A DNA stretch of 64,000 nucleotides, taken from positions 1-64,000 of the forward strand of contig VXRG01000027.1 in NCBI GenBank assembly GCA_009838625.1, given 5' to 3'. Every line of letters begins with the position of its first letter. The first letter of the stretch is position 1. The position numbers and the translations under genes were made by a program. The stretch is from Caldilineaceae bacterium SB0664_bin_27. GTDB taxonomy: Bacteria; Chloroflexota; Anaerolineae; Caldilineales; Caldilineaceae. This document shows, piece by piece, positions 35,640 to 61,992 of this stretch. The notes under the pieces were generated by a model that searched no databases, was not told the DNA's origin, and was given only the letters and a program-made list of their open reading frames with translations.

Positions 35640-35890
35640 CTTCGTGCATTGGCACACAATCCTTTCACACCAGACACACCCGCACAAACGACAAATTGTC
35701 GCACTTGCCAGCGTTTACGAAGAGAACACCAGCCGCGAAGCGGCCTAGGGGCAGACCAATACAACCGACCCCACCAGAGTTACTCTAAACGTTTTTCAGT
35801 ATTGGGGTATCCCCCTGCCATCGACCCTTTCGTAGCGCTTGCCGTACTCCCTGAATCTCTGGGCAATCGCCTACACCTTGTGTCAAGTAG
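35640..35890 (+). repeat. R1 repeat (palindrome 35689-35701)
   Basis: The core reads KRQIVALASV in the DUF3102 frame, followed by GAACACCAGCCGCGAAGCGG and a tail (GGTATCCCCCTGCCATCGAC, CCTTTCGTAGCGCTTGCCGT) shared with the copies at 47120-47440 and 51180-51530. It ends about 12 bases before the GmrSD-like start. Confidence 0.75.
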
Positions 35891-37837: not shown

Positions 37838-38185
37838 GCTCTTCTGCGGATCAAAAATCATCCCCTGCCTGAAGCCTTGACACCCGCCCTCGAAGAGCGT
37901 GGCATACCAGTTCATATCCCCCATCACCTCACCCATCTGCGACAGAAACACCCCCAAAAACGACAAATTGTCGCTTTTGCCAGCCTTTCGCCGGCCCTCA
38001 CGCAAAGAAAGCCCGCCGCGAACCGACCGCACCAGAACCGTCCTTAGCGCTTTCCCAGGCATGAGGGTCCCCCAACTACGCCTCCTTCTGTCGCATCTGG
38101 CCTACCCCCCTGAATTTCTCGACAGCGGCAAAGCAGGCAGCTGGGGCCGACTGTCAAAGAACCCTTCGAGTACCAAAGAGTTGTT
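37838..38185 (+). repeat. R1 repeat, longest left flank (palindrome 37961-37973)
   Basis: In the DUF3102 frame this copy reads ADALLRIKNHPLPEALTPAL, then EERGIPVHIPHHLTHLRQKH and KRQIVAFASLS, an almost collinear match to codons 37-88 of the gene at 19002. It begins immediately at the GmrSD-like stop codon. The tail (CTTTCCCAGGCATGAGGGTC, CTGAATTTCTCGACAG, TTCGAGTACCAAAGAG) is shared with other copies. The frame is closed by stops, so it is not expressed as protein. Confidence 0.85.
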
Positions 38186-38692
38186 CAGCCACTATTGTAG
38201 TCTGCCATGAGCGCGGCATACCGATCAGACCGGCCGGCCAGAAAGCGGGCCGGGACTTCCTCGTCAGTCCCAGTTCGATAGAGTTCCAAAGGTCGATACC
38301 TCTCCACCTGCGGCCCACGCCGCAATGCTCATCACGATGTTGGCAAACAGCAAAATCACGGGACCCACAGTCATGACCAGATAGACAAAGATATAGAAGA
38401 CCGGCTCAACGTAAGTCTCCATGAAGATCGCGTAGTCCATCATCTCCTGCGTCACTTCTGGCATCTTGCACCTCTACCCTCTCTTTACGACGTCAAGCCA
38501 GGCCCACGCCAGGCGCCGTTCCAGATCATCGATCTCGCTTGCAACCTGCAATAGGATCTCTTCCCACTGCCCCCATAAAAATCGTAGTGATTGCGGACAA
38601 GCAGCTCCGGCATATCCCCGCCCCGCCCCGGCAGCAAACGCATACTGACCAGCGTGTCCGTTCCATCCCCGTAACGCTTCAACGCGCCTTCC
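37930..38692. repeat. Direct duplication of ~750 bp, copy A (copy B at 42517-43260)
   Basis: Starting in the R1 repeat and running through the small membrane protein gene into the broken gene upstream of it, the two copies are near-identical. The 201-base membrane protein gene shows no difference by eye. They diverge after CGCCTTCC/CGCCTTCA. Confidence 0.9.
38264..38464 (-). CDS. Small membrane protein (copy A)
   Basis: 66 residues with a long hydrophobic core (YIFVYLVMTVGPVILLFANI, VMSIAAWAAGG) that would span the membrane once or twice, and an acidic N-terminus (MPEVTQEMMDYAIFMETYVE). GAGGTGCAAG lies directly before the ATG. The sequence is identical to the product of 42832-43032. The function is unknown. 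It follows the frameshifted gene at 38474-38952 by 9 bases, so it was probably the second gene of an operon. Confidence 0.6.
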   Translation of the reverse strand: MPEVTQEMMDYAIFMETYVEPVFYIFVYLVMTVGPVILLFANIVMSIAAWAAGGEVSTFGTLSNWD

Positions 38693-39115: not shown

Positions 39116-39610
39116 CACTTGTCGATACTACGTTACCTCAAGCGCCTATCCCTGTCAGAATGTGGGGCGGCACTCCGCATCGTTCGCATCTTGGTGACAC
39201 GAATGATCGGCCGTGTCGCGATGTAGGTTGTGTGACTTTGCCGACACTGTGTCCGGCATTCACTTTCAACGTAGCCTATTTTAGGAATACAATGCACTCA
39301 TGTCTAGGGAGTGCATCGCAAATCTGGTGGGATGCCTTTACGCTAGTTGCGTCGGGTGCTGACTCTGCAAGGGCTGGCACCGAAACTGAAGGTCCTCAAT
39401 AGTCAAGTGCTAGATTTGACAAGCTGTAGGCAGTTCACACCGCACATATCCGGGTGAAAGAAATGGCTCTGTGTGACGGTGGCCCAACACGTCACTCCAG
39501 CTGGAATCATCTGTGCTTGTGGCGTTTTGATGGTTCGCCAGCTCTGAAGTCTGGGGCTGCCGGTGCGCTCTGCATGTTAGCCTGGGAACTCAGAAAAAAG
39601 GTATTGCCCA
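39116..39610. other. Intergenic region upstream of the PLD/NTPase gene
   Basis: About 495 bases of medium GC with no recognised gene or repeat. It probably holds the promoter of the following single gene. AAAAAAGG lies before its ATG. Confidence 0.4.
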
Positions 39611-41617
39611 ATGGTAGATGATCGTAGACAGAATCGCCTCGATTTCGGCGACGCCCACTCTGCTGCTGAACAGGGCCTTAAAGTCGTTACGGCACAGTTC
39701 AAAGAAGTCGAACCATTCAGTTGGAACCTTTTCGATGGATTTGAAAGGATGCGCGTTCTGACCTACTCGGCCAGCGCGCCGATGATAGTGAAGATGTTAG
39801 ACAGACACCCTTTCGAACTCTTCGAGTGCATTTTCGGATACGAAGGCGGACTGCGCAAGGTCGCCGAAATTGTTGCGTTTCAGCAGTTTCTGGTCAACCA
39901 GGTGAGGGACTGTGCTCTGCAGTTGAACGATGACCGGCAACGGGTCATATTCGAGAGAATTCAAGCCGACAAGGCTCGTTTCTACGTTGTAAAGGACAAT
40001 ATCGCCCATGCGAAGCTCTATCTCCTCGAGGCCAATGACGGCGGGCGTCGCAGGGTAATAGTGGGATCGGCCAATTTGTCGGAGCGGGCATTCGGCGGCA
40101 AGCAGCCTGAAACGTTGGTCGCCTTCGACAATGATTCCAGGGCGTGGGAACACTATTCGCGTGAGTACGACGCCGTCAAGGAGACTGCCTCAGACAGAAT
40201 CGACGTGCCGCTGGATCGACGAGAGGCTGAGATTTCGTTTACAGATACTCCTGTTATGCAAGATCCAGGCCCGACAGTGTTTCAGATTCCTACTGAAGAG
40301 GAGCTGACACTGCCTCAGGTCGTGCATAAAGTAGAGGAACTTGCTGTCCCGGTCGACAGAGTTGTAACCCCGCAGATCTCCCGCGAGAACGGCAGATATG
40401 TAATCAAGCCCTCCGTGAAAGCGGAAATCAAGAAGATGCGCTGGCAGAAGAACCAATTGCAAAATGAAGAGAGCAGAACTACCAGTCTAACGATCCACCA
40501 AGAGTCCAGACATGTCTCGCTGAGGGGCGTTCATGTCCCGCTGGAAATTGACAATGACGGATTGAGGAAAAGCTCCGAAGCCATAGTCGAATACTATAAC
40601 AACTATGAGCAAGGCTTCGTGGGAGATGTGCATAGACTGCAGCGAGACTACTTCACTTTCATGTCCTGGCTCTACATCTCGCCGTTTATCTGTGATCTTC
40701 GGACACGCGCCGTCGTAGACGGCGGTAACATCTTCCACTATCCCTTATTCGCCATCATCTATGGCAAAGCAAATTGCGGCAAGACAAGCCTGGTGGATAC
40801 GCTGATTGCTAGCATGTTCGGCCATCCCAGCACCGTACAAAAGGATAGCTTTACCCGCAGAACACTACGTGGCCTTCAACAAAATTACAAGCGCTTCCCC
40901 GTGGTCTTCGATGATATCACCCGCAGACGTTTCACCGACCACGGTCTGGATATTGTAAAAGATGAGAGCCTACCACCTGTCAAGGAGCACCCTTGCTTCG
41001 TTATCTCGATGAACGCCGAGCCCCAATCGTTTCCGGATGAAGTAGTAAAGCGCTGCCTTATGATCTACACCAACACATCTATCCCCACCCACAAGCACTC
41101 TTTAGCTGATCGTTTACATACCAGCGTAGAGGACATCCGCAACAGACTCACAACCGATCTGTACCGGCACTACTTGGCCGCCGTTATGGACAAGCTGGAC
41201 AGCACAATGGAGCCACGCGATATCTTGACGCTGTCCTCCGAAATCATCTGCGAAATCTTGGATGAGCATCTCAGAGGACGGCTGCCCGGCTGGTGTCAAC
41301 CTGTATCGTGGAATCAGTATGCCGACCGTCGCTACGAGCGCCCGGCCAGGCGACTAGCCGCGCTCCTGGCGCCTGAAAACTATCGAAAAAAAATAGCTGA
41401 AGGCGAACAGGGATGGACATTGCAAACCGATACCGTGGTCGTCTGGGAGAAGGCGGACGCCTTTGGTCGCACGTCCATAAAGGGAGAGATTCCCGATTTC
41501 CTATACGATGACACTTCCAGCGTCGGTGATACCTTTGTTCTCTGGCGCAAGCAGACAGAGGAGTTCCTGGGGACGCAAATAGTCCGACCGGGCATCAGAT
41601 GGCCGTGGGCCAGATAG
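39611..41617 (+). CDS. PLD nuclease fused to a P-loop NTPase
   Basis: 668 residues. The N-terminal ~210 residues hold one phospholipase D-type motif: His133 and Lys135 in HAKLYLLE, then GSANLSERAFGG (Ser153, Asn155), as in PLD-type nucleases that work as dimers. A variable linker follows (210-370). The C-terminal part is a P-loop ATPase: Walker A IYGKANCGKTSLVDTL near residue 383-398, Walker B FPVVFDDITRRR near 430, and VISMNAEPQSFPDEVVKRC, a sensor/arginine-finger-like region as in AAA+ or SF3-type NTPases. A likely role is ATP-driven control of DNA cleavage in phage defence. It is a single-gene unit between two duplicated blocks. I know of no named system with this exact layout. Confidence 0.75.
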   Translation: MVDDRRQNRLDFGDAHSAAEQGLKVVTAQFKEVEPFSWNLFDGFERMRVLTYSASAPMIVKMLDRHPFELFECIFGYEGGLRKVAEIVAFQQFLVNQVRDCALQLNDDRQRVIFERIQADKARFYVVKDNIAHAKLYLLEANDGGRRRVIVGSANLSERAFGGKQPETLVAFDNDSRAWEHYSREYDAVKETASDRIDVPLDRREAEISFTDTPVMQDPGPTVFQIPTEEELTLPQVVHKVEELAVPVDRVVTPQISRENGRYVIKPSVKAEIKKMRWQKNQLQNEESRTTSLTIHQESRHVSLRGVHVPLEIDNDGLRKSSEAIVEYYNNYEQGFVGDVHRLQRDYFTFMSWLYISPFICDLRTRAVVDGGNIFHYPLFAIIYGKANCGKTSLVDTLIASMFGHPSTVQKDSFTRRTLRGLQQNYKRFPVVFDDITRRRFTDHGLDIVKDESLPPVKEHPCFVISMNAEPQSFPDEVVKRCLMIYTNTSIPTHKHSLADRLHTSVEDIRNRLTTDLYRHYLAAVMDKLDSTMEPRDILTLSSEIICEILDEHLRGRLPGWCQPVSWNQYADRRYERPARRLAALLAPENYRKKIAEGEQGWTLQTDTVVVWEKADAFGRTSIKGEIPDFLYDDTSSVGDTFVLWRKQTEEFLGTQIVRPGIRWPWAR

Positions 41618-42473: not shown

Positions 42474-42831
42474 AGCACTATCTCTTGTCCTGCTGGTCCT
42501 CGCGCTGACTGCCGTTCCCCCCCATCCGCAACAGAAACACCCGCAAAAACGACAAATTGTCGCATTTGCCAGCCCTTCGGCGGCCCTCACGCAAAGAAAG
42601 CCCGCCGCGAACCGTCCAAAGCGCTTTCCCAGGCATGAGGGTCCCCCCAACTACGCCTCCTTCTGTCGCATCTGACCTACCCCCTGAATCTCTCGACAGG
42701 GGCAAAGCAGGCAGCTGGCCGATTGTCAAAGAACCCTTCGAGTACCAAAGAGTTGTTCAGCGACTATTGCGGGCTGCTATGAGCACGGCATACCGATCAG
42801 GCCGGCCAGAAAGCGGGCCGGGACTTCCTCG

Positions 42832-43032
42832 TCAGTCCCAGTTCGATAGAGTTCCAAAGGTCGATACCTCTCCACCTGCGGCCCACGCCGCAATGCTCAT
42901 CACGATGTTGGCAAACAGCAAAATCACGGGACCCACAGTCATGACCAGATAGACAAAGATATAGAAGACCGGCTCAACGTAAGTCTCCATGAAGATCGCG
43001 TAGTCCATCATCTCCTGCGTCACTTCTGGCAT
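42832..43032 (-). CDS. Small membrane protein (copy B)
   Basis: Same 66-residue product as 38264-38464, with no base difference seen by eye. The ribosome site before the ATG is also retained. Confidence 0.6.
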   Translation of the reverse strand: MPEVTQEMMDYAIFMETYVEPVFYIFVYLVMTVGPVILLFANIVMSIAAWAAGGEVSTFGTLSNWD

Positions 43033-43041
43033 CTTGCACCT

Positions 43042-43250
43042 CTACCCTCTCTTTACGACGTCAAGCCAGGCCCACGCCAGGCGCCGTTCCAGATCATCGA
43101 TCTCGCTTGCAACCTGCAATAGGATCTCTTCCCACTGCCCCCATAAAAATCGTAGTGATTGCGGACAAGCAGCTCCGGCATATCCCCGCCCCGCCCCGGC
43201 AGCAACCGCATACCGACCAGCGGGTCCGCTCCATCCCCGTAACGCTTCAA
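43042..43250 (-). pseudogene. 3' fragment of the frameshifted hypothetical gene (copy B)
   Basis: Only the last ~65 codons are present (LKRYGDGADPLVGMRLLPGR onward), with the same one-base loss after NHYDFY as in copy A, ending at TAG 43042-43044. The 5' part was lost at the duplication boundary. The next ~240 bases hold no recognised feature. Confidence 0.7.
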
Positions 43251-43493
43251 TGCGCCTTCAACGCCTTCTGGCTGCCCGCGCCTTTCATGTCATTGCAGGC
43301 CCCGCTAAGCAGCTGCAGATTTTCCGGTTGAGCCAGCCCGGCGCGCGTCGACTATTTACAGCGCTAAGCAAGGGTCTTTCTGTGGCTGTGGATTCTCTGA
43401 AAGCGAGTCTTGCCGCGTAAAATCGCGTCAGATCGCCTGGATTCGCGCTGTCTCTTTGTTCAATGGAGGAAAAGACTGGGGTATTTGCACGAG

Positions 43494-47451: not shown

Positions 47452-48630
47452 ATGACCACGACGATTGTCCGGGCGCATAAAATCAGACTTGTCCCAACAG
47501 GTCAGCAAGAACGGCATTTCGTGCAGGCTTGCGGTACGGCACGGTTTGCCTACAACTGGGGCTTGGCCGAGTGGAAGCGGCAGTACCAGGCGGGGATGAA
47601 GCCAAGCGCCAGGCAGTTGGACAAACGCTTGAACGCCGTTAAGCGGGAGCGTTACCCCTGGATGTATGCAGTATCCAAATGGGCAGCACAGATGGCGATT
47701 CAGAATCTTGGCATCGCGTTCAGGAACTTCTTTTCCCGGCGCGGGAAATATCCTCGCTTCAAAAAGAAAGGCAAAGCGGCTCTCTCATATGTGTGCGCCG
47801 TAGGCATACAGGAAATCAAAGTGAGAGACAAGCGCCTGTGGGTTCCGAAACTTGGCTGGGTCAGAATGCGCCAACGGTTGCGTTTCGAGGGCAAACCGTT
47901 GCGCGTCACGATCAGTAAGACCGCCGGTCAGTGGTACGCAGCAATCGCTGTTGAAATGCCATGGGTCGTTCCGGTCCGCGAGAACCAAGCGGACGGGGGG
48001 CTGGACGTTGGCATATCGCCACTCGCGGTCGAAAGTGACGGCACTCGCTGGGAAAATCCGAAAGCGCTGGATAAAGAACTGCGGAAATTGAGGCGATGGA
48101 GTCGCAGGTTATCGCGGCGCACGCAGGGGAGTCGAGGCCATCAGGAAGCGCAACGTCGGATTGCCGCAATCCATAAGCGAATTGCCGACATGCGGGCGGA
48201 TTGCCACCACAACCTGAGCAGGTCGGTCGTGGACAAGTACAGCCGTTTGGGTGTTGAAGACCTGAACGTATCGGGGCTGTTGAAAAACAGGCGTCTATCC
48301 CGGCATCTGGCTGATGCTGCGCTGGGTGACCTCCTGAGACAGGTTCGATATAAGGCTGAACAGTACGGGACGGAGATTGTGGAAGCGAATCGTTTCTTTC
48401 CTTCGTCAAAGACCTGTTCGGCTTGCGGACGAAAGAATGAGAGCCTGACACTATCCGACAAACGGTGGGTTTGCGAATGTGGTGTACAGCATGATCGAGA
48501 CAGGAACGCGGCCATCAATCTGAGAAATTATTGTAGGGCGGGGCACGCCCGAACGACGCCGATGGACAGTGAAGCGCTGGCCGCCAGAACTTTCGGCGGT
48601 GAAACTGCGCTGGGTGAAGTCGGAATTTGA
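47452..48630 (+). CDS. tnpB: TnpB, RNA-guided nuclease of an IS200/IS605-type element
   Basis: 392 residues, full length. The N-terminal helix-turn-helix/WED region (RAHKIRLVPTGQQERHFVQA) precedes a split RuvC nuclease: Asp near 185 in GGLDVGISPLAV, Glu near 268 in LGVEDLNVSGLL, and Asp near 350 in HDRDRNAAINL. A zinc ribbon lies between (CSACGRKNE, CECGVQ). By family knowledge TnpB uses an omega RNA from its own 3' end to cut DNA next to a short motif and so retain the element. There is no TnpA, so it cannot move alone. The 3' flank after 48630 (GGGGGCGTAAGCCC) is the expected location of the guide scaffold. Confidence 0.9.
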   Translation: MTTTIVRAHKIRLVPTGQQERHFVQACGTARFAYNWGLAEWKRQYQAGMKPSARQLDKRLNAVKRERYPWMYAVSKWAAQMAIQNLGIAFRNFFSRRGKYPRFKKKGKAALSYVCAVGIQEIKVRDKRLWVPKLGWVRMRQRLRFEGKPLRVTISKTAGQWYAAIAVEMPWVVPVRENQADGGLDVGISPLAVESDGTRWENPKALDKELRKLRRWSRRLSRRTQGSRGHQEAQRRIAAIHKRIADMRADCHHNLSRSVVDKYSRLGVEDLNVSGLLKNRRLSRHLADAALGDLLRQVRYKAEQYGTEIVEANRFFPSSKTCSACGRKNESLTLSDKRWVCECGVQHDRDRNAAINLRNYCRAGHARTTPMDSEALAARTFGGETALGEVGI

Positions 48631-51589: not shown

Positions 51590-51760
51590 TTCAGCGAATT
51601 GACCAAGGGGTTCTCGCCGGAGCGCCGGCATCGCATTGACGACACCAAACACGAGTTGTGCCGGGCCCGGACGCTGACCTAGCAGGAGCTGGTTCAGATG
51701 CTGAAGGTGAACCAACCCGCCTTCTCCAACCTGGAGTGGCGGACAGACATGTACATCTGA
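51590..51760 (+). pseudogene. XRE-family antitoxin relic
   Basis: One frame reads FSELTKGFSPERRHRIDDTK, HELCRARTLT, stop, QELVQMLKVNQPAFSNLEWR, TDMYI, stop. This is the pattern of small HigA-type helix-turn-helix regulators (ALTQQELAQ.LKVNQPAVSKLE.RTDMYI). The in-frame stop falls where a Gln codon (CAG) is expected. A few residues are also missing before LRRARTLT. No toxin gene is adjacent. Confidence 0.7.
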
Positions 51761-52044
51761 GGCGACTCTGGGAGGACGCAGCCGGTCGTCTACCACCTCC
51801 ACCCTTTCGCCGCCGATCGCGCGCGCGCCGCAGTTTTACCACCTGCACCAGCACCGCGCCAACGCCGGCGCGCGCGGCATGGACCAGGCAGGTTTCGCTG
51901 CAAGGAGGTAGTGGGGGCAGCCAGGCCCTGGACCATGGCCGCCGTGCCCGTGTCGCGCATCCACGGCGGTCGCGGTTCTTGCTTGGTTCCGCGCGGTCGC
52001 GCCGCGTTCCCACAATCCCAGCCGTCCATCCCCAACCACATCTA

Positions 52045-53298
52045 TCAGGGAGGCGCTCGCGACGCCGATTCTGCCCCAGAGCGTTTCCGCAAAACCGGCA
52101 ACCCAGACCCAACCCCTGGTATAGCGGCGAAAATGTCATAGACCCCCCCGGCCATCTCGACGACCGCGACGCGTCTGGCCGGCGCCCGGTTCGCCCGTGC
52201 AAGTCGCAGCCACCTCTCCATCTCGGGGTCGGTCGGCCGGTAGACCGGCGCAACGAAACCGCCGTCAGCCTCCCGAATAATCCTCTGGCCGACAATCCGC
52301 ACATATCCGCAGGCCTTCAGATGTTTGAAATCCCGCACTATAGTCTCTCGGCAACAGCCGAAATGATCGGCCAGCGTCCGGTGAAGGACCGATACGGTCA
52401 GCCTTCCGCTCTTCCCCGGTCTGGCAATGGCCGTCAGAATTTTATGCATTTCCACCTGGCGCGCATTCAGAAGCGGGTGCCCCCGATCGCGCTTCTCGCC
52501 GGTCCGCCGCCCGCGCCGCCGGCATCCCTTCCATCCATACCGCTTTGCCAGCCAGAACAGACTGCCGAGAGTGAGACCGCCCTCAGCGTCGAAACCCCGC
52601 CACTTTGCCGCGCATTCCCCATCCTTGTAGCGGTCCTGATCCGTCGCCGACCAGGCGCGCCACAGTTCCAACCCGTCCTCGACGCAGCCGTAAGCCTCGC
52701 CCCAGTGGAGGGCCATACCGACCGCCAGCCACTCTTCGTAACTGACCACCCTGCATGGAATGACCCGCAACGCGGCTCGCACCCGCGCAGTCTGGCCCCG
52801 CACGCCCCTCGTCCGCCGCCGGCGTTCCTCCGTCTTGTAACGGATCGGCCACTGCGAAACGTCAACCGGCTCGACCTGGTCGATCTGCTCAAGCGCCGCC
52901 AGCGCCGCCTCTTCATCCCACAGGACCGCATATCCCTTCGCACAGCGAATCTCCCCGCCTTCCCAATAGCGGTTCCCTACCGGCTGATCGCAGCGGTAAT
53001 ACAGGTGCAGCCCGCCCGATCGCGTCCGCGCCTCAAACAAGGGCGCGCCCAAATGGTCCCGCACAGCCTCGCGCCAGTACCAGACCGGCCGGCCCTTGCC
53101 CGTGTCAATATCCACCACCAGCAGGCCCGCCGCATAGGGAACGTGCCCGATCAGCTGCTCGGGATCAGCGCGCGCCGCCTCCACCTCTTCGGCAGACGCG
53201 CCGCAACGCAGCCAGCCTTTCGCCAGCGGCCGCTTATCCGCCGCGGACGCAACGACATAGTGCGGCCCGCGCTCAGCCGCCGCCGTCTCGCGGTCCAT
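52045..53298 (-). CDS. Primase-polymerase (prim-pol) replication protein
   Basis: 417 residues. The N-terminal prim-pol domain has the metal-binding LLVVDIDTG (Asp63, Asp65) and the TRSGGLHLYY motif (92-101, His98). A PriCT-like helical domain follows (VVSYEEWLAVGMALHWGEAY, then SLFWLAKRYGW), then a winged helix (TVSVLHRTLADHFGCCRETI, VRDFKHLKACGYVRI). Such proteins prime or start replication of plasmids and phages. It is on the same strand as the helicase and initiator-like genes at 55-58 kb, with the iteron array between, so all probably belong to one integrated replicon. Confidence 0.82.
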   Translation of the reverse strand: MDRETAAAERGPHYVVASAADKRPLAKGWLRCGASAEEVEAARADPEQLIGHVPYAAGLLVVDIDTGKGRPVWYWREAVRDHLGAPLFEARTRSGGLHLYYRCDQPVGNRYWEGGEIRCAKGYAVLWDEEAALAALEQIDQVEPVDVSQWPIRYKTEERRRRTRGVRGQTARVRAALRVIPCRVVSYEEWLAVGMALHWGEAYGCVEDGLELWRAWSATDQDRYKDGECAAKWRGFDAEGGLTLGSLFWLAKRYGWKGCRRRGRRTGEKRDRGHPLLNARQVEMHKILTAIARPGKSGRLTVSVLHRTLADHFGCCRETIVRDFKHLKACGYVRIVGQRIIREADGGFVAPVYRPTDPEMERWLRLARANRAPARRVAVVEMAGGVYDIFAAIPGVGSGLPVLRKRSGAESASRAPP

Positions 53299-53739
53299 CC
53301 CTGCCCCCGTACCAATAGGCCGCGGGGCAAGGAAAGCGCAAACAGTATAGGGATTGTGCCTTATGGAGATACACGGGGTTCCCGCCTATCATTTGCGCCG
53401 CTGGCCAAGCGGCATGAATCTGATAAGTCTCACTATACCATACCCTTGGAAACCACAAAAGCCGCCGATTGGCGGCTCCTGGGCGTCGCTTGGCCGGCGA
53501 CGGGGTCAGATTCACCATAAAGACAGGCGGGTGTCTTCATGGATTTATCACATTTGTTCCCTGTGACTAGGCTTGCCGCAGTATGCAGCAGGTGAAGCCA
53601 TTATAGCAAACGAAGGGGACTTTGTCAACAAGCTTCGCGCCAGATCTGAAAGGAACAGAAACCAAATCTGATTCTGTATCGCCCGAACCAGGGCGCCGGC
53701 GGCATGCAGCTAGGCAGGGGCAAACCTTGTGATCGCCCT
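53299..53739. other. Intergenic region
   Basis: About 440 bases upstream of the prim-pol gene with no recognised gene. It is more AT-rich near 53520-53680. Confidence 0.4.
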
Positions 53740-55195: not shown

Positions 55196-55335
55196 ATACG
55201 CAGATTTCGGACACTGATACGCAGATTTCGGACACTGATACGCAGATTTCGGACACTGATACGCATTTTCCCGCACACTGATACACAGTTTTCGGACACT
55301 GATACGCAATTTCCCGCACACCGATACGCAATTCA
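55187..55335 (+). repeat. Iteron array, candidate replication origin
   Basis: Seven direct repeats of about 21 bp, consensus CGGACACTGATACGCA plus AATTT or GATTT, start at 55187, 55208, 55229, 55250, 55272, 55293 and 55315. The first three are identical; the later ones diverge and include two 22-bp spacings. A unit length of two helical turns beside replication genes is typical of plasmid iterons bound by a Rep protein. The array ends at the stop codon of the putative initiator gene. Confidence 0.75.
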
Positions 55336-57039
55336 CTGGCTCTGTCTCTTCCGCCTGCCTAACTGCTTCACTGCGGCCGGAGTTTGGAAGTTGACACCCC
55401 AGCCGCGGGGAGGGCACAGTTTTATCTGGCCGCCATGATGAGCCGTCTCCAGCAGACCTAGGCGCTCCATTTCCTGAACATACTTCAAACTCCGCGCCTG
55501 GTATTTGTGAACATTCTTTGTTCGTTCGGCGCCAGCCAGCTGCGTAGGGCTGTAGAACAGCCGTAACAGACGGTCGTCAGTGTATGAAGGGAGATACTGG
55601 ACTGCCGGGTTGGGTTCCCTCTCCTGGTCGGGATGCGCGACAGTGCGCGGATCGTTCCAGTTGCCGATCGGATGGCCCCTCCGGTTCACGATCACCTTGC
55701 CCTGGTCGTCCAGCAGTTTACCCTTCTCGTCCCGCCGCCGCGCCGGCCGCGTCGCGTAAGGCCAGGACGTGCCGCGGGTTACCTTGTCCTTGTCCTTCCC
55801 CTTCGTTCTTGCCCCTCTCCACCACTGATGAGAAAGCGTCAGATGTGCGCGGTACATCGGGCCGTGCGACGCGCCCAGCCAGTCGAGCGTCTCTCTGTGA
55901 ACCGCTGCCCCCTGCTTTGCATCCGGAGGCAGATAGACCTGAAAGACGATCTCCCCGTCCATCGGAAAATTGTCCGGCAAAGCAATCCATTGCCCTACGG
56001 TTCCGATAACCCTTCGCAGACCCCCGTACTCGACCGGGACCCCGGCCGTTTCCCAACCGAACATGGCCGCCCGCAGCCTGGGCATGTAGCGTCTGTCAAA
56101 GCGTCGAGGCCACAGATGTGAAGTGACATCCCGCAAAGTCGTTGGCACAAGCACACCGCCGTCAAAGCCGGCGACGCTCTCAAGCACGTCGATCTCAGTG
56201 AGAACGGTTATCAGCAGGCGCAGGCCTAGCGCCCCCTCCCTGTCCGACCCCCGCAAAGCGTCGAAAAGGGACAGGACCGGAAAAACCTCCATCTCGTCAT
56301 AGTCGGGCAGCAGCGCCTCCAAGCCGGGAAGCAATGCCTGGCCCACGCCCACACTGGGATTATCGCTTCCTGAAGGCGCAAACTCTCTAATGTGGAAGTA
56401 ATCCTTCGTGATGACCGCCATCGGCCTGTTGTTTCGAACTGCTCGCGGGGGCCTCTTCAAATAGGCCCGGATCATCGGCGCCAGCGGGTGCGGTGAGCCC
56501 GGCTTAGCCGCCCATTCCACGAGCCGGGAGCAGATGATTCCCTCGAAAACCTCCTGTCCTGACACCTCCGGCGTAATCGCCTTGAAGGCATCTTGAATCG
56601 CAATGTATCGGAAAGCGTTCTCAGAATTCCATTCACCTTCAAACCCCTCTTCAAACCCATCCGTAACGCCTGCGAGATCAGGATTGCGGCCGGCGAATAC
56701 CCGTTTGAACGCCTCCGTCCGTGCATCCTCCAAATCCTCGGCCAGCCAGTCCTCGGCCAGCGTCGAAACTTCCAGCGAAACTTTCTCTGGATCGCGCTGC
56801 TCGGCTATGGCGCAATCACGCACCAGGGTTGCCATCAACTGATCGGCAACCTGGCGGTAACAGCTCCGGCAAAGGGTGACGCGCGGCAGCATTGTGAATT
56901 GGTCCCCGGCTGAAGGATTCTTGGGGAGATCGAAATCAACAAAGCCTGCCGCTTCTTCCGGCGCCAGGCCGGGTTCCTGGCACCTTACGCACGGCAGCGA
57001 GCCGTCATCAAAGAGTGTTCTTTCCAGAAAGTCCGCCAT
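55333..57039 (-). CDS. Putative replication initiator with winged-helix C-terminus
   Basis: About 568 residues. Near the N-terminus are Cys pairs that could bind zinc (CVRCQEPG and LCRSCYRQ). The C-terminal part includes RLLRLFYSPTQLAGAERTKN, YQARSLKYVQEMERLGLLET, a winged-helix-like DNA-binding region. I do not recognise the family. Three things make an initiator the best guess: it overlaps the helicase gene, it lies next to the iterons, and a decayed copy of its 3' end lies in the origin region. The start at 57039 (MADFLERTLF) is chosen over 57060, though both overlap the previous gene. Confidence 0.5.
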   Translation of the reverse strand: MADFLERTLFDDGSLPCVRCQEPGLAPEEAAGFVDFDLPKNPSAGDQFTMLPRVTLCRSCYRQVADQLMATLVRDCAIAEQRDPEKVSLEVSTLAEDWLAEDLEDARTEAFKRVFAGRNPDLAGVTDGFEEGFEGEWNSENAFRYIAIQDAFKAITPEVSGQEVFEGIICSRLVEWAAKPGSPHPLAPMIRAYLKRPPRAVRNNRPMAVITKDYFHIREFAPSGSDNPSVGVGQALLPGLEALLPDYDEMEVFPVLSLFDALRGSDREGALGLRLLITVLTEIDVLESVAGFDGGVLVPTTLRDVTSHLWPRRFDRRYMPRLRAAMFGWETAGVPVEYGGLRRVIGTVGQWIALPDNFPMDGEIVFQVYLPPDAKQGAAVHRETLDWLGASHGPMYRAHLTLSHQWWRGARTKGKDKDKVTRGTSWPYATRPARRRDEKGKLLDDQGKVIVNRRGHPIGNWNDPRTVAHPDQEREPNPAVQYLPSYTDDRLLRLFYSPTQLAGAERTKNVHKYQARSLKYVQEMERLGLLETAHHGGQIKLCPPRGWGVNFQTPAAVKQLGRRKRQSQ

Positions 57040-58327
57040 ATTCCGCTCCTGTATTCCCATTGCTGCTTCCTGTGGCCTGCTTCTGGCGCTGCTTCCCCTG
57101 GCGCCGGCCGGCCTTGTCCGCCGCTTCGGGTGGCGTCTGTTCCTTGCTCGTCCGCCATGCCCAGCCGGTCCCCTTGCTGCGCTTCAGGTACACCGGCTCA
57201 GGTCGTTTCGCATAGCTGGCCTTCTCGCATGACAGCCTGGCCGTGTCGCTGTCCCCCGCGCCGTCGCCGAGTTCCCAGCGGAAACGGGCGTGCATTTCCC
57301 AGCTTCCGGCGCCTCGATATCCGGAACTCGTCGCGCCTTCGCTCTGTGGCTTGGGCGGATGATGGACGAGCAGAACCGCGCAACTGTGGTCCCGTCCCCA
57401 GCTGTCCCAGGCCGCCATAAAGTCCGCCACCCCCGCATTGTCGGAATCATCGCGCCCGTAGGCGTAGCCCAGGCTGTCGAGTATCAGCAGGCGGGCCCCG
57501 ATCTCTTCGCACTTCTCCCGCACGATCTTGCCGGCCTCCAGCAATTGAGGCCGCTGATTGTACAGATCGCCTTCGCCCACCCCCCACACCGGGCCCCGCC
57601 GTGCCATGTCCAGAAAGCGCAGCCCGCGCCCCGTTTTGGGCGTGTGCTGCAATCGCTGGATTAAGGGCAGGCCCTCCGCCTCCCTCTGGGCGTCTGCCTG
57701 CCTGTGCAACGCGGCGTCCCAAATGCATAGCCGCCGCTTGATCTCTTCCGCCTCGTCCTCCCAGCTGGCAAAGACAACGGCGCCCGGCTCGACAGGCAGA
57801 ACTGCCTTATCAGGACTGGAGGCCCGCCCCAGCCATTCCCTCTCCCCGCTTGCCATGGTCGCGGCCAGCTGCAGCAGCATCCACGTCTTGCCCTTGCCGC
57901 CCTTGCCGCTTACCATTCCGATTCGCCCGGCGGGCAGCCAGGCGGGGATCAGCCACTCTCGTGTCGGCGCCTCCAGATCAGCCCAACTGTCTACGATCTC
58001 CACGCTCTCCCGCAGCTCATCCGTCGGCAACAGCTGCGCGATCTGCCTCCACGCCGCCCACCGCGTCTCGAAATCGCCGCTGTGCAGGTCAGCGATCAAA
58101 TCCGCAGGATCGCGTCCCTTCAGCACGACGTCGATCGCGCGGCCCCCCTCGTCGCCAGGATGCAACGCCTTGACCGTGGCCACGTCCGCCGGGTCCGGTC
58201 TCTCCCCGGCGCGCACCGCGGCCACGACCCTTGCCAGTTCCAGCGCGCCCGCCCGCGGCCGTATAGATATAGTCTCGCCGGCGATCCCCTGACCGTTCTG
58301 CGTTCCGTATTCAGCCTGTTTGTCCAT
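57008..58327 (-). CDS. RepA-type AAA ATPase/helicase
   Basis: 439 residues of the RecA-like hexameric RepA/AAA_25 group found on plasmids and in phages. Walker A is GKGGKGKT (141-148), Walker B LLILDSLG (280-287), the sensor region CAVLLVHHPPKPQSEGATSS, then GAGSWEMHARFRWEL. The N-terminal ~110 residues are a separate helical domain. It would unwind the origin after the initiator binds the iterons. Second to third gene in a minus-strand operon with the zinc-finger protein 15 bases upstream. Confidence 0.83.
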   Translation of the reverse strand: MDKQAEYGTQNGQGIAGETISIRPRAGALELARVVAAVRAGERPDPADVATVKALHPGDEGGRAIDVVLKGRDPADLIADLHSGDFETRWAAWRQIAQLLPTDELRESVEIVDSWADLEAPTREWLIPAWLPAGRIGMVSGKGGKGKTWMLLQLAATMASGEREWLGRASSPDKAVLPVEPGAVVFASWEDEAEEIKRRLCIWDAALHRQADAQREAEGLPLIQRLQHTPKTGRGLRFLDMARRGPVWGVGEGDLYNQRPQLLEAGKIVREKCEEIGARLLILDSLGYAYGRDDSDNAGVADFMAAWDSWGRDHSCAVLLVHHPPKPQSEGATSSGYRGAGSWEMHARFRWELGDGAGDSDTARLSCEKASYAKRPEPVYLKRSKGTGWAWRTSKEQTPPEAADKAGRRQGKQRQKQATGSSNGNTGAEYGGLSGKNTL

Positions 58328-59249: not shown

Positions 59250-59330
59250 TCTTGCTGTTCCTTCGTGTCTTTTCGCGCCCCTTCGCGGATCAATCGGTCT
59301 TGTCTCTCGCAGGAATCAAGCCGGACGCGC
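59250..59330 (+). repeat. R2 repeat, overlapping the comEC stop
   Basis: TTCCTTCGTGTCTTTTCGCG, CCCCTTCGCGGATCAATCGG, then AGGAATCAAGCCGG. The block covers the last codons of comEC (IPARDKTD, stop 59290), so its insertion probably altered the C-terminus. Confidence 0.6.
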
Positions 59331-61992
59331 CGCCCCATTCCAACAACTCGGCTCCGTCGCCCTTCTCCGTCGCGACCCACATCAGCCGTCCGTCACTCCA
59401 TATGTGGACGCGCCCCGCCCTGTCATTCCGCAATACCAGGCGCCCGTCAAGTACCTCCAGCACCTCCGGGTCCGGATGACCGTACCGGTTCTCCGCGCCG
59501 ACCTGGATGACCGCCACACTGGGCCCGACCGCCTCGACAAACGCCGGGCTGCTGCTGTGCTCGCTGCCGTGATGCCCGACCTTGAGCACATGCGCGGCGA
59601 CCGGCTGCCCCTCGCGCAACAACTGCGCCTCGCTGGACAGGCCGGCATCGCCCGTCAACAGTACCGAAAAACTGCCGTAAACCAGCTTCAGCACCAGCGA
59701 CCGTTCGTTCTTGTCATTCTCCTCAAGCCCCGTTAAAAACTTCTCCCGCGGCGGCCACAGCGCCCACAGCGCCACCCCGTCGCCAAGATCCAGCCAAGCC
59801 CCCTGCTGCAGTCCCGCAACCGGCACATTCTCCGCCTCCAGGGCCGCCAGCCACAGCTGCGAGTCCTCGTGATCGCGCACATTCTCGCTGATGATCGCCT
59901 GGCCGAGCCCGAAGCGGCTGGGCAAATCCACCTGTCCGCCGATATGGTCCCAGTCAGGGTGCGTTACAATCGCCCGATCGATGTGACGGTCCCAGAACGG
60001 CATAACCGCGCCCAGTTCAGCGAACAGCTGCTGGCCGTCATCCCCGCCGTCTATCAACACCTGGCGGCCGCTGGGCGTCTGGATAAAGATCCCGTCCCCC
60101 TGCCCGACATCCAGGAAGTAAACGTGGAGTTGCCCGTCCGGCTGCGTCAGGGCCAGCCACCACAGCAGGCCGGCCGCCACCGCCAGGAGCCCAACCGTCC
60201 AGGTAGGCGTCGCGCCCGCAAGGACTGTCAACCGCCGGCCGGCCGCGGTCTCTCTCTGTTCCACGGCAGAAAAGCGGGCAGCCCTGTGCCCACTCCGCCC
60301 CAGGCGCTCAAATAACGAAGCGGTAGCGCATTTAACTTGCCCCGCTATCGACTTTCGCCAGTACAACCCCAGAATGGCGGCGTAAGTTAAAGCCATTGCG
60401 CCTCCCCCGTACGCGGCAACCTCCACGCTGCCCCCTTGAATGGTCGCGTGCCATTTCACGATCATCGTCGTCCACCATAGACTGGCGTAGGGTACAAACA
60501 GCAGGTAGTAAGCGACCTGCTCCAGGCCCGACAGCCCCGCGATCAATCCCATGCCGCCAAATATCATGATCCAGGGTTGCGCCGGCGCGATCAGAACGTT
60601 GGTGAACAGGCTGATCAGGCTCAGCCGTCCAAAGTAATGGACGATAAGGGGATAGGTCGTGACGCTGGCCGCGACCGTCATCAAGAGGCTGTCCCGCAGC
60701 AAGTCGCCAAATGACCTGGGCATGAGAAAATCCGCCTGCGAACCGTCCGCCGCGCGCCCCTTTCGCAGCAAGCCTCTCTCCAACCTGCGCCACAATGACG
60801 TGACGCTGTCCGTCAGCGCCGGTCCGATCAGGATCAGTCCGACGGTGGCCGCGCTGCTCAGTTGAAAGCCCACATCCCACAGCATGAGCGGATTCCACAG
60901 CGTCATCGCCCAGCACGCCGCGGCCAGGCTGACCAGTGCTGTGCTCTGCCGCCCCAGCACCGTTGCCACCACAAACAGGCCGCCCATCAACGCCGCCCGC
61001 ATCACCGCGGCGTCTCCCCCCACCAGGACCGTGTACAGGGCAAGGCCGCCCAGCGTCGGCCACAGCGCGCCGCGCTTGCCAAACAACCTGATGCCCAGCG
61101 CCATCAGCGCGCCGGTCACCAGCGCCACGTTGCTGCCGCTGATCACGATCACGTGGCTGGCGCCCGTGAGGTTGAACTTCTCGTACAGCTCGTCCGGAAT
61201 GCCGGCTTCGATGCCCAGCAGCATCCCGTTTGCCAGCGCGGCATACGGCTCCGGCAGCAGGCGGTTCAGAAGCCTCTCCCCGCGACTGCGCAAGCCATAG
61301 ACGAACTGCAGCGGAAACGTCCCCCGCAGCCTGCCCGGCTGCGGTTCGACGCGCACCCGCCGCATCAGGCTGTGAATATCTTTGCGCGCCAGGTAGGCCC
61401 GGTAATCGAAGCCCTCGAAGACCGGCGGCTCCGTCAGCTCGCCTCGCGCCCGCACACCTTCTCCGTAGCGAAAACGGTGTACGCTGTTCGTCTGCAGTCG
61501 CAGGCGCCCGTCGACCCCTATCCTCTCGCCCTCGAGCTCCAGGTACTCCGCCTCGATATCCAGCCGCCGCCAGCCCTCCTTCAGGACCGGGTAGCTCGCC
61601 ACGTACCCGTCTACAGCTGCCGGCCGGCTGCCGCCGTCCCTTCCGTTTCCGATGCCGTTGTAGTAGGCCAAATCGGATGGCCCGAGACAGGGCTGGGGCG
61701 GGTGTGAACCAAGGCGCAGGACGCCGCAAATGCCGGCCAGCAGAATTCCGCCCACAAGCCAGGCTGAGGGCGTCCTGCGCGGCGGCACAAAACCGGCCGC
61801 CGCCGGCCAGACCATGGGCGCCGTCGCCCGGGGAACGTCAACGGCATCCCTCCACAGACAGACCGGAATCAGAGCCAGCGCCGCCATCCAGAAATGGTCG
61901 CCAATACCGCAGCCAAACCAGCCCTGTTGCCAGAGCATCTGTCCGCTGGCTACGCCCGCAAGATAGGCTATCGCAAGGTAGAGCAGTTTCAT
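59290..61992 (-). CDS. comEC: ComEC/Rec2 DNA uptake channel
   Basis: 900 residues. N-terminal hydrophobic helices and an OB-like domain (DGRLRLQTNSVHRFRYGEGV) are followed by the competence channel domain with GASHVIVISGSNVALVTGAL near residue 280. The C-terminal metallo-beta-lactamase domain has THPDWDHIGGQVD near residue 676-688 and LKVGHHGSEHSSSPAFVE, the metal-binding and nuclease motifs. The protein moves single-stranded DNA across the membrane during natural transformation. It is full length and no damage is seen except the R2-encoded tail. Upstream on the same strand is comEA. Confidence 0.95.
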   Translation of the reverse strand: MKLLYLAIAYLAGVASGQMLWQQGWFGCGIGDHFWMAALALIPVCLWRDAVDVPRATAPMVWPAAAGFVPPRRTPSAWLVGGILLAGICGVLRLGSHPPQPCLGPSDLAYYNGIGNGRDGGSRPAAVDGYVASYPVLKEGWRRLDIEAEYLELEGERIGVDGRLRLQTNSVHRFRYGEGVRARGELTEPPVFEGFDYRAYLARKDIHSLMRRVRVEPQPGRLRGTFPLQFVYGLRSRGERLLNRLLPEPYAALANGMLLGIEAGIPDELYEKFNLTGASHVIVISGSNVALVTGALMALGIRLFGKRGALWPTLGGLALYTVLVGGDAAVMRAALMGGLFVVATVLGRQSTALVSLAAACWAMTLWNPLMLWDVGFQLSSAATVGLILIGPALTDSVTSLWRRLERGLLRKGRAADGSQADFLMPRSFGDLLRDSLLMTVAASVTTYPLIVHYFGRLSLISLFTNVLIAPAQPWIMIFGGMGLIAGLSGLEQVAYYLLFVPYASLWWTTMIVKWHATIQGGSVEVAAYGGGAMALTYAAILGLYWRKSIAGQVKCATASLFERLGRSGHRAARFSAVEQRETAAGRRLTVLAGATPTWTVGLLAVAAGLLWWLALTQPDGQLHVYFLDVGQGDGIFIQTPSGRQVLIDGGDDGQQLFAELGAVMPFWDRHIDRAIVTHPDWDHIGGQVDLPSRFGLGQAIISENVRDHEDSQLWLAALEAENVPVAGLQQGAWLDLGDGVALWALWPPREKFLTGLEENDKNERSLVLKLVYGSFSVLLTGDAGLSSEAQLLREGQPVAAHVLKVGHHGSEHSSSPAFVEAVGPSVAVIQVGAENRYGHPDPEVLEVLDGRLVLRNDRAGRVHIWSDGRLMWVATEKGDGAELLEWGGASGLIPARDKTD

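Follow-up and report, generated by a model that had tools for sequence, protein, structure and literature searches.

A single-gene fusion of a putative PLD nuclease with a Cch/Rep-like helicase half in a Caldilineaceae bacterium

We describe a gene of Caldilineaceae bacterium SB0664_bin_27 whose 668-residue product joins a putative PLD nuclease domain to an NTPase half that, in predicted models, has the replicative-type ring helicase fold of SCCmec Cch and SaPIBov1 Rep. The gene lies on the forward strand of the window, by which we mean the whole 64,000-nucleotide stretch of contig VXRG01000027.1 that was analysed. We propose, with moderate confidence, that the product is a self-contained ATP-dependent helicase-nuclease, most likely one that destroys invading phage or plasmid DNA as a single-gene accessory defence.

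Gene and protein layout

The open reading frame begins with ATG, and its position and motifs (HAKLYL, GSANLSERAF and FPVVFDD in a 668-residue chain) are as a sequence-only reading of this DNA had given them. The parts of the gene are as follows.

39611..41617, + strand: whole gene, fusion of PLD nuclease and Cch/Rep-like AAA+ NTPase, 668 aa (open reading frame, same-order homologues, dN/dS)
39686..40228, + strand: PLD nuclease domain, aa 26-206 (Pfam PLDc_2 and RE_NgoFVII, fold matches)
40007..40015, + strand: HxK active-site motif, H133 and K135 (invariant in 29 of 29 homologues)
40064..40111, + strand: GSxN motif (G152-N155) to E167, the remaining PLD half-site (conservation)
40229..40477, + strand: variable, poorly folded linker, about aa 207-289 (pLDDT mostly <50; dN)
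40478..41593, + strand: helicase-like C-terminal half, aa 290-661 (separate model; Cch and SaPIBov1 Rep folds)
40763..40786, + strand: Walker A, GKANCGKT, aa 385-392 (G385, G390 and K391 invariant, 29/29)
40895..40915, + strand: Walker B, FPVVFDD, aa 429-435 (D434 29/29; D435 28/29, with E in one)
41012..41014, + strand: presumed sensor-1 asparagine N468, in SMNA (29/29; role by analogy to SF3/AAA+ helicases)
41048..41053, + strand: presumed arginine-finger pair K480-R481 (R481 29/29, K480 28/29; role inferred)

Could the meeting of a PLD domain and a P-loop in one reading frame be fortuitous? The structure prediction and the search for the same domain order that had been suggested placed the NTPase fold and yielded full-length homologues of 33-87% identity. 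Against the closest relative (L008) dN/dS is about 0.08 (0.072/0.916), which points to strong purifying selection, and on these grounds the fusion is not a chance one. The low dN/dS, together with the invariant catalytic residues of the 29 homologues, indicates that both halves are selected as active-site-bearing domains. In comparisons with L008, L002, L004 and L006, the linker had the highest dN of the three protein parts.

No structured RNA or tRNA was found, promoter and terminator scans gave results near chance level, and an alignment of six upstream regions revealed nothing common beyond the closest pair. A sequence search for solved relatives of the protein returned none that was convincing.

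Nuclease domain

Two Pfam families match the N-terminal domain with scores that pass their curated thresholds: 27.7 bits for PLDc_2 (cut-off 27) and 26.1 bits for RE_NgoFVII (cut-off 23.8). HAKLYL spans aa 133-138 and GSANLSERAF aa 152-161, and G152, S153, N155 and E167 are, like the HxK residues, invariant in 29/29 homologues. In the full-length model, aa 26-206 matches the folds of SauUSI (Z 12.8), NgoAVII R (10.9) and Nuc (10.5). With HxK, GSxN and E set in a predicted PLD fold, the domain is by these criteria a single-HKD PLD half-site of the NgoFVII/SauUSI type, and one HKD per chain is consistent with a PLD dimer that makes one active site. The pairing of a PLD nuclease with a P-loop NTPase in one chain, which had been read from the letters, is thus borne out by the two Pfam families, the fold matches and the invariant residues.

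Helicase-like half

The nature of the NTPase is less easily read from its sequence. Its Walker A region, IYGKANCGKTSL, lies at aa 383-394, and the single changes at D435 and K480 among the 29 homologues are conservative. Every Pfam family is below threshold for this half; the best of the AAA type is PF00910 (SF3-type helicase, E 0.0037), which 12 of 15 relatives also match. Folded separately (pLDDT 78.3), the C-terminal half is made up of a helical region, an AAA+ core, and helical and C-terminal alpha/beta parts, and in fold comparison its model found Cch (5dgk, Z 13.5) and SaPIBov1 Rep (8tch, Z 13.3), the next match being at 8.6. Because the rmsd of these alignments is high (7.7-8.1 over 286-288 residues), the domain arrangement must be different or poorly predicted. 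Foldseek likewise gave 5dgk as the top match of the helicase half (E 6.4e-07), and the full-length model (pLDDT 66.5) also placed the region after the PLD domain with Cch and SaPIBov1 Rep.

DUF927 forms part of Cch, a relative of SaPIBov1 Rep (PMC7581432). The Pfam DUF927 family has no match to the 668-aa protein at E 1 by hmmscan. A profile-profile comparison of the gene family with 26 DUF927 proteins gave a probability of 82.7% and E 9.5e-06, over 56 columns only, in the Walker A-B stretch; this support is independent of the predicted model, but short. On the two predicted models and this short profile match, we assign the NTPase half to the Cch/SaPIBov1 Rep type of replicative ring helicase. 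Since the whole half appears to fold like these replicative helicases, it is more probably a ring motor that translocates along DNA or senses it than a merely regulatory NTPase. The sequence-only reading had the NTPase switching the nuclease: the coupling of the two domains stands, but in place of a generic switch we find a predicted Cch/Rep helicase fold.

How might such a protein work? Computed results support the domain identities. We infer the oligomeric state, the translocation, the target and the role in defence. From what is seen in PLD families, the PLD domains of two protomers would pair to form one active site, and the motor half, by analogy with the Cch/Rep families, would assemble as a hexameric ring. 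For these relatives of the helicase half, a hexamer, 3'-5' unwinding and origin binding have been reported (PMC7581432). The ring may recognise a structure in the invader's DNA that is replicating or resembles an origin, or may load there, and ATP hydrolysis would drive translocation, so that DNA is fed to the PLD dimers. No dedicated DNA-recognition domain was identified in the protein. A more particular idea, which we offer tentatively and consider possible rather than probable, is that a replicative Rep/Cch-type ring helicase of mobile elements was turned against invaders by fusion to a restriction-type PLD nuclease. What gives the invader away would then be replicating or origin-containing DNA, with no methylation or sequence mark involved.

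One might think instead of a regulated abortive-type effector, in which the AAA+ half senses infection and, acting as an ATP-driven assembly switch and not as a motor, joins the PLD domains, so that host and phage nucleic acid are both cut. A two-domain effector-sensor layout in a defence-rich window would suit such a role, and the disordered linker could keep the nuclease off, much as a linker with an autoinhibitory role has been proposed in BfiI and considered in SauUSI (PMC7913695). However, the AAA+ half matches replicative helicases over almost its entire length and keeps sensor-1 and arginine-finger-type residues, and Pfam finds neither sensor repeats nor a STAND-like domain. We regard the abortive effector as doubtful.

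Gene neighbourhood

Across 29 loci the commonest neighbour family is common to 4 at most. The gene therefore behaves as a single-gene unit, as had been supposed from the lack of partner genes in the window, and we rejected a partner gene or a toxin-antitoxin pair for want of a widely recurring neighbour. VapC/BrnT genes occur near the Acetobacteraceae plasmid copies, and not elsewhere. Homology between the window and the L008 locus runs from 39488 to 41616, which takes in the gene and some 120 bp before its start; the rest of the adjoining flanks shows no match. In the window the gene is bracketed by a direct repeat:

37932..38691, unstranded: left copy of the flanking direct repeat (94% identical to 42521-43259 over 761 nt)
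42521..43259, unstranded: right copy, which with the left copy brackets the gene

The 300-bp core of this repeat, which holds a 66-aa ORF, occurs in full only twice in the genome, on the two sides of the gene. The repeat could be a mark of the segment's arrival or a route for its loss. Between genes of the window there also recur members of a dispersed repeat family that share a conserved ACGACAAATTGTCGCATTTGCCA core, for example at 35652, 37932, 39029, 42521, 47180, 48954, 51296 and 53890.

Is the setting a defence island? The window had been taken for a dense one, and it does hold several defence-type genes (type IIG RM/DrmMI-like, AAA_21, TIR, DUF262/HEC-05-like, DNA methyltransferase and PD-Lambda-5_A-like), but MFS, TPP-enzyme and periplasmic-binding genes lie within it too. 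The homologues are similarly divided. Some have defence-type neighbours: GmrSD at L008, BrxC/D-like genes and a DEAD helicase at L049 and L017, a type IIG RM gene and HKD-Snf2 at L053, and an N6 methylase at L055. Others lie among metabolic or transport genes. In L012 (8274-13324) the copy is flanked on either side by a FAD-oxidase (glcD/glcE-like) gene of the same strand, where a defence gene would not usually be expected; the L016 copy is beside EamA and racemase genes, and that of L010 beside DUF885. PADLOC tallied 101 models near homologues versus 38 near controls (about 100 neighbours and 100 controls), in counts of models, with related ones counted repeatedly, and not of proteins. Defence neighbours are frequent but not universal, and an enrichment is plausible, though unproven; the tally is suggestive only.

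Several other genes of the window deserve mention. The 392-aa protein of 47452-48630 has strong matches to Cas12f/Cas12u models (E 1.6e-72), and is TnpB-like or Cas12f-like. A 900-aa protein (59290-61992) matches LmuA, RTasMBL, Avs1a and PDC-M48B models in its C-terminal part, at about residues 620-850, and these matches leave its N-terminal 600 residues uncovered. Two long ORFs, 51658-53520 (620 aa) and 55333-57060 (575 aa), are without any Pfam match; the latter adjoins an AAA_25 gene.

Relatives and distribution

A single scan of species genomes found homologues at 16 loci, with identities between 33% and 87%, in Caldilineaceae, Dehalococcoidia, SAR202, Anaerolineae, Chloroploca, Ignavibacteria, Kapaibacterium and a gammaproteobacterial MAG. 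The gene is present in 17 of 301 sampled Chloroflexota genomes, one of these copies being degenerate and carrying stops (G069). In the phyla of the gammaproteobacterial and Ignavibacteria MAGs it was found in 1/398 and 2/296 genomes, respectively, all of them already known. A search with the helicase half alone returned the identical set of 17 Chloroflexota genomes, so that no free-standing relatives of that half turned up.

More distant relatives are on plasmids of Acetobacter, Komagataeibacter, Athalassotoga and Thermus, with 22-29% identity across the greater part of the protein or across its helicase half; for one Thermus plasmid the identity is 40% over a short PLD stretch. Two Thermus plasmids (L021, 7998-11065; L023) have the PLD part followed by transposase genes, and on the one from Thermus oshimai the helicase part comes after these as a separate ORF, as though the gene had been broken by an insertion. 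In the tree, the Ignavibacteria and Kapaibacterium copies join those of Anaerolineae and Chloroploca, and the gammaproteobacterial copy joins a Dehalococcoidia copy. These groupings would fit horizontal transfer; some of the branches are long, and MAG binning can err. The spread is patchy, crosses phyla and is partly plasmid-borne, that of a recurring mobile single gene. A viral origin was rejected, as phage records, IMG/VR contigs and PHROGs gave no match.

Might the protein serve a mobile element rather than its host, as a replication initiator or helper that combines a Rep-like helicase with a PLD nickase? The closest folds are SCCmec and SaPI replication helicases, there are homologues on plasmids, and a VapE-like gene lies near the L008 copy. 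Against this, at least two carrier plasmids have their own annotated initiator (Komagataeibacter, L022; Athalassotoga, L020), no recombinase, primase or other partner recurs at the 29 loci, many copies are chromosomal and some are lone genes inside metabolic clusters, and the viral collections hold none. Such a role seems to us unlikely. Least probable of all is that these lineages use the protein for housekeeping, as a helicase-nuclease of DNA repair or recombination. Strong purifying selection and the few copies embedded among metabolic genes would suit this, but the sparse Chloroflexota occurrence with its degenerate copy, the unlike gene contexts and the cross-phylum spread argue against it.

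For a defence helicase-nuclease, a reading to which we give about even weight, we count the predicted PLD and Cch/Rep folds, the DUF927 profile match, the kept residues, the failure to find the helicase half by itself in Chloroflexota, the lack of a partner, the patchy spread, the homology to L008 that ends close to the gene, and the defence neighbours. The copies among metabolic genes (L012, L016 and L010), a PADLOC tally that counts models, the dependence of the helicase assignment on predicted models and a short profile match, and the lack of a recognised DNA-binding module count against it.

Comparison with known systems

No PADLOC 2.0 system matches the protein over its full length. The matches are P-loop-sized or motif-sized, the latter being 46 residues of ZacB, in agreement with the sequence-only reading, which assigned the layout to no named defence system. 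A literature search, mostly without subscription papers, found no description of a PLD-AAA+/Rep helicase defence protein. A PLD nuclease coupled to a DNA motor is already known; what this analysis adds is an identity for the NTPase and evidence of a widespread single-gene family.

The PADLOC systems PLD_Helicase / HKD+Snf2 (C3a139) and Zac resemble the present gene in placing a PLD nuclease with a helicase in defence loci. The motor of C3a139, described as HKD+Snf2, is of the SF2 class and so unlike the present one, and an HKD+Snf2 gene in fact lies near the L053 homologue; Zac consists of several proteins, of which ZacB is alike in a motif only. Cch and SaPIBov1 Rep share the predicted fold of the C-terminal half and a related Walker A-B stretch. 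Unlike them, the present protein carries a PLD nuclease at its N-terminus, has no tie to replication genes and lacks a Pfam DUF927 match at E 1. The NgoAVII, CglI and NgoFVII-type enzymes are related through the RE_NgoFVII family and the NgoAVII R fold, but NgoAVII and CglI have separate R (PLD plus B3) and H (SF2) subunits (PMC7913695), whereas here there is one gene with a different motor.

SauUSI resembles it in plan, being a single chain that runs from an N-terminal PLD nuclease through a linker to an ATPase motor. This ATP-dependent restriction endonuclease of type IV is driven by an SF2 motor of the RecA type and recognises its target by an SRA domain; it dimerises via its PLD domains, and target recognition leads to ATP hydrolysis and then to translocation (PMC7913695). 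In the present protein the predicted motor is an AAA+ of the Cch/Rep type, and Pfam gives neither an SF2 nor an SRA match, so that it appears to fall outside the SauUSI-type ATP-dependent type IV enzymes. The described PLD restriction enzymes compared here use SF2 motors plus a recognition domain or partner. If our assignment is right, the joining of a PLD nuclease and a Cch/Rep-type ring helicase would couple DNA translocation or replication sensing to cutting in another manner, and within a single portable gene; it would also mean that defence has recruited replication helicases from mobile elements.
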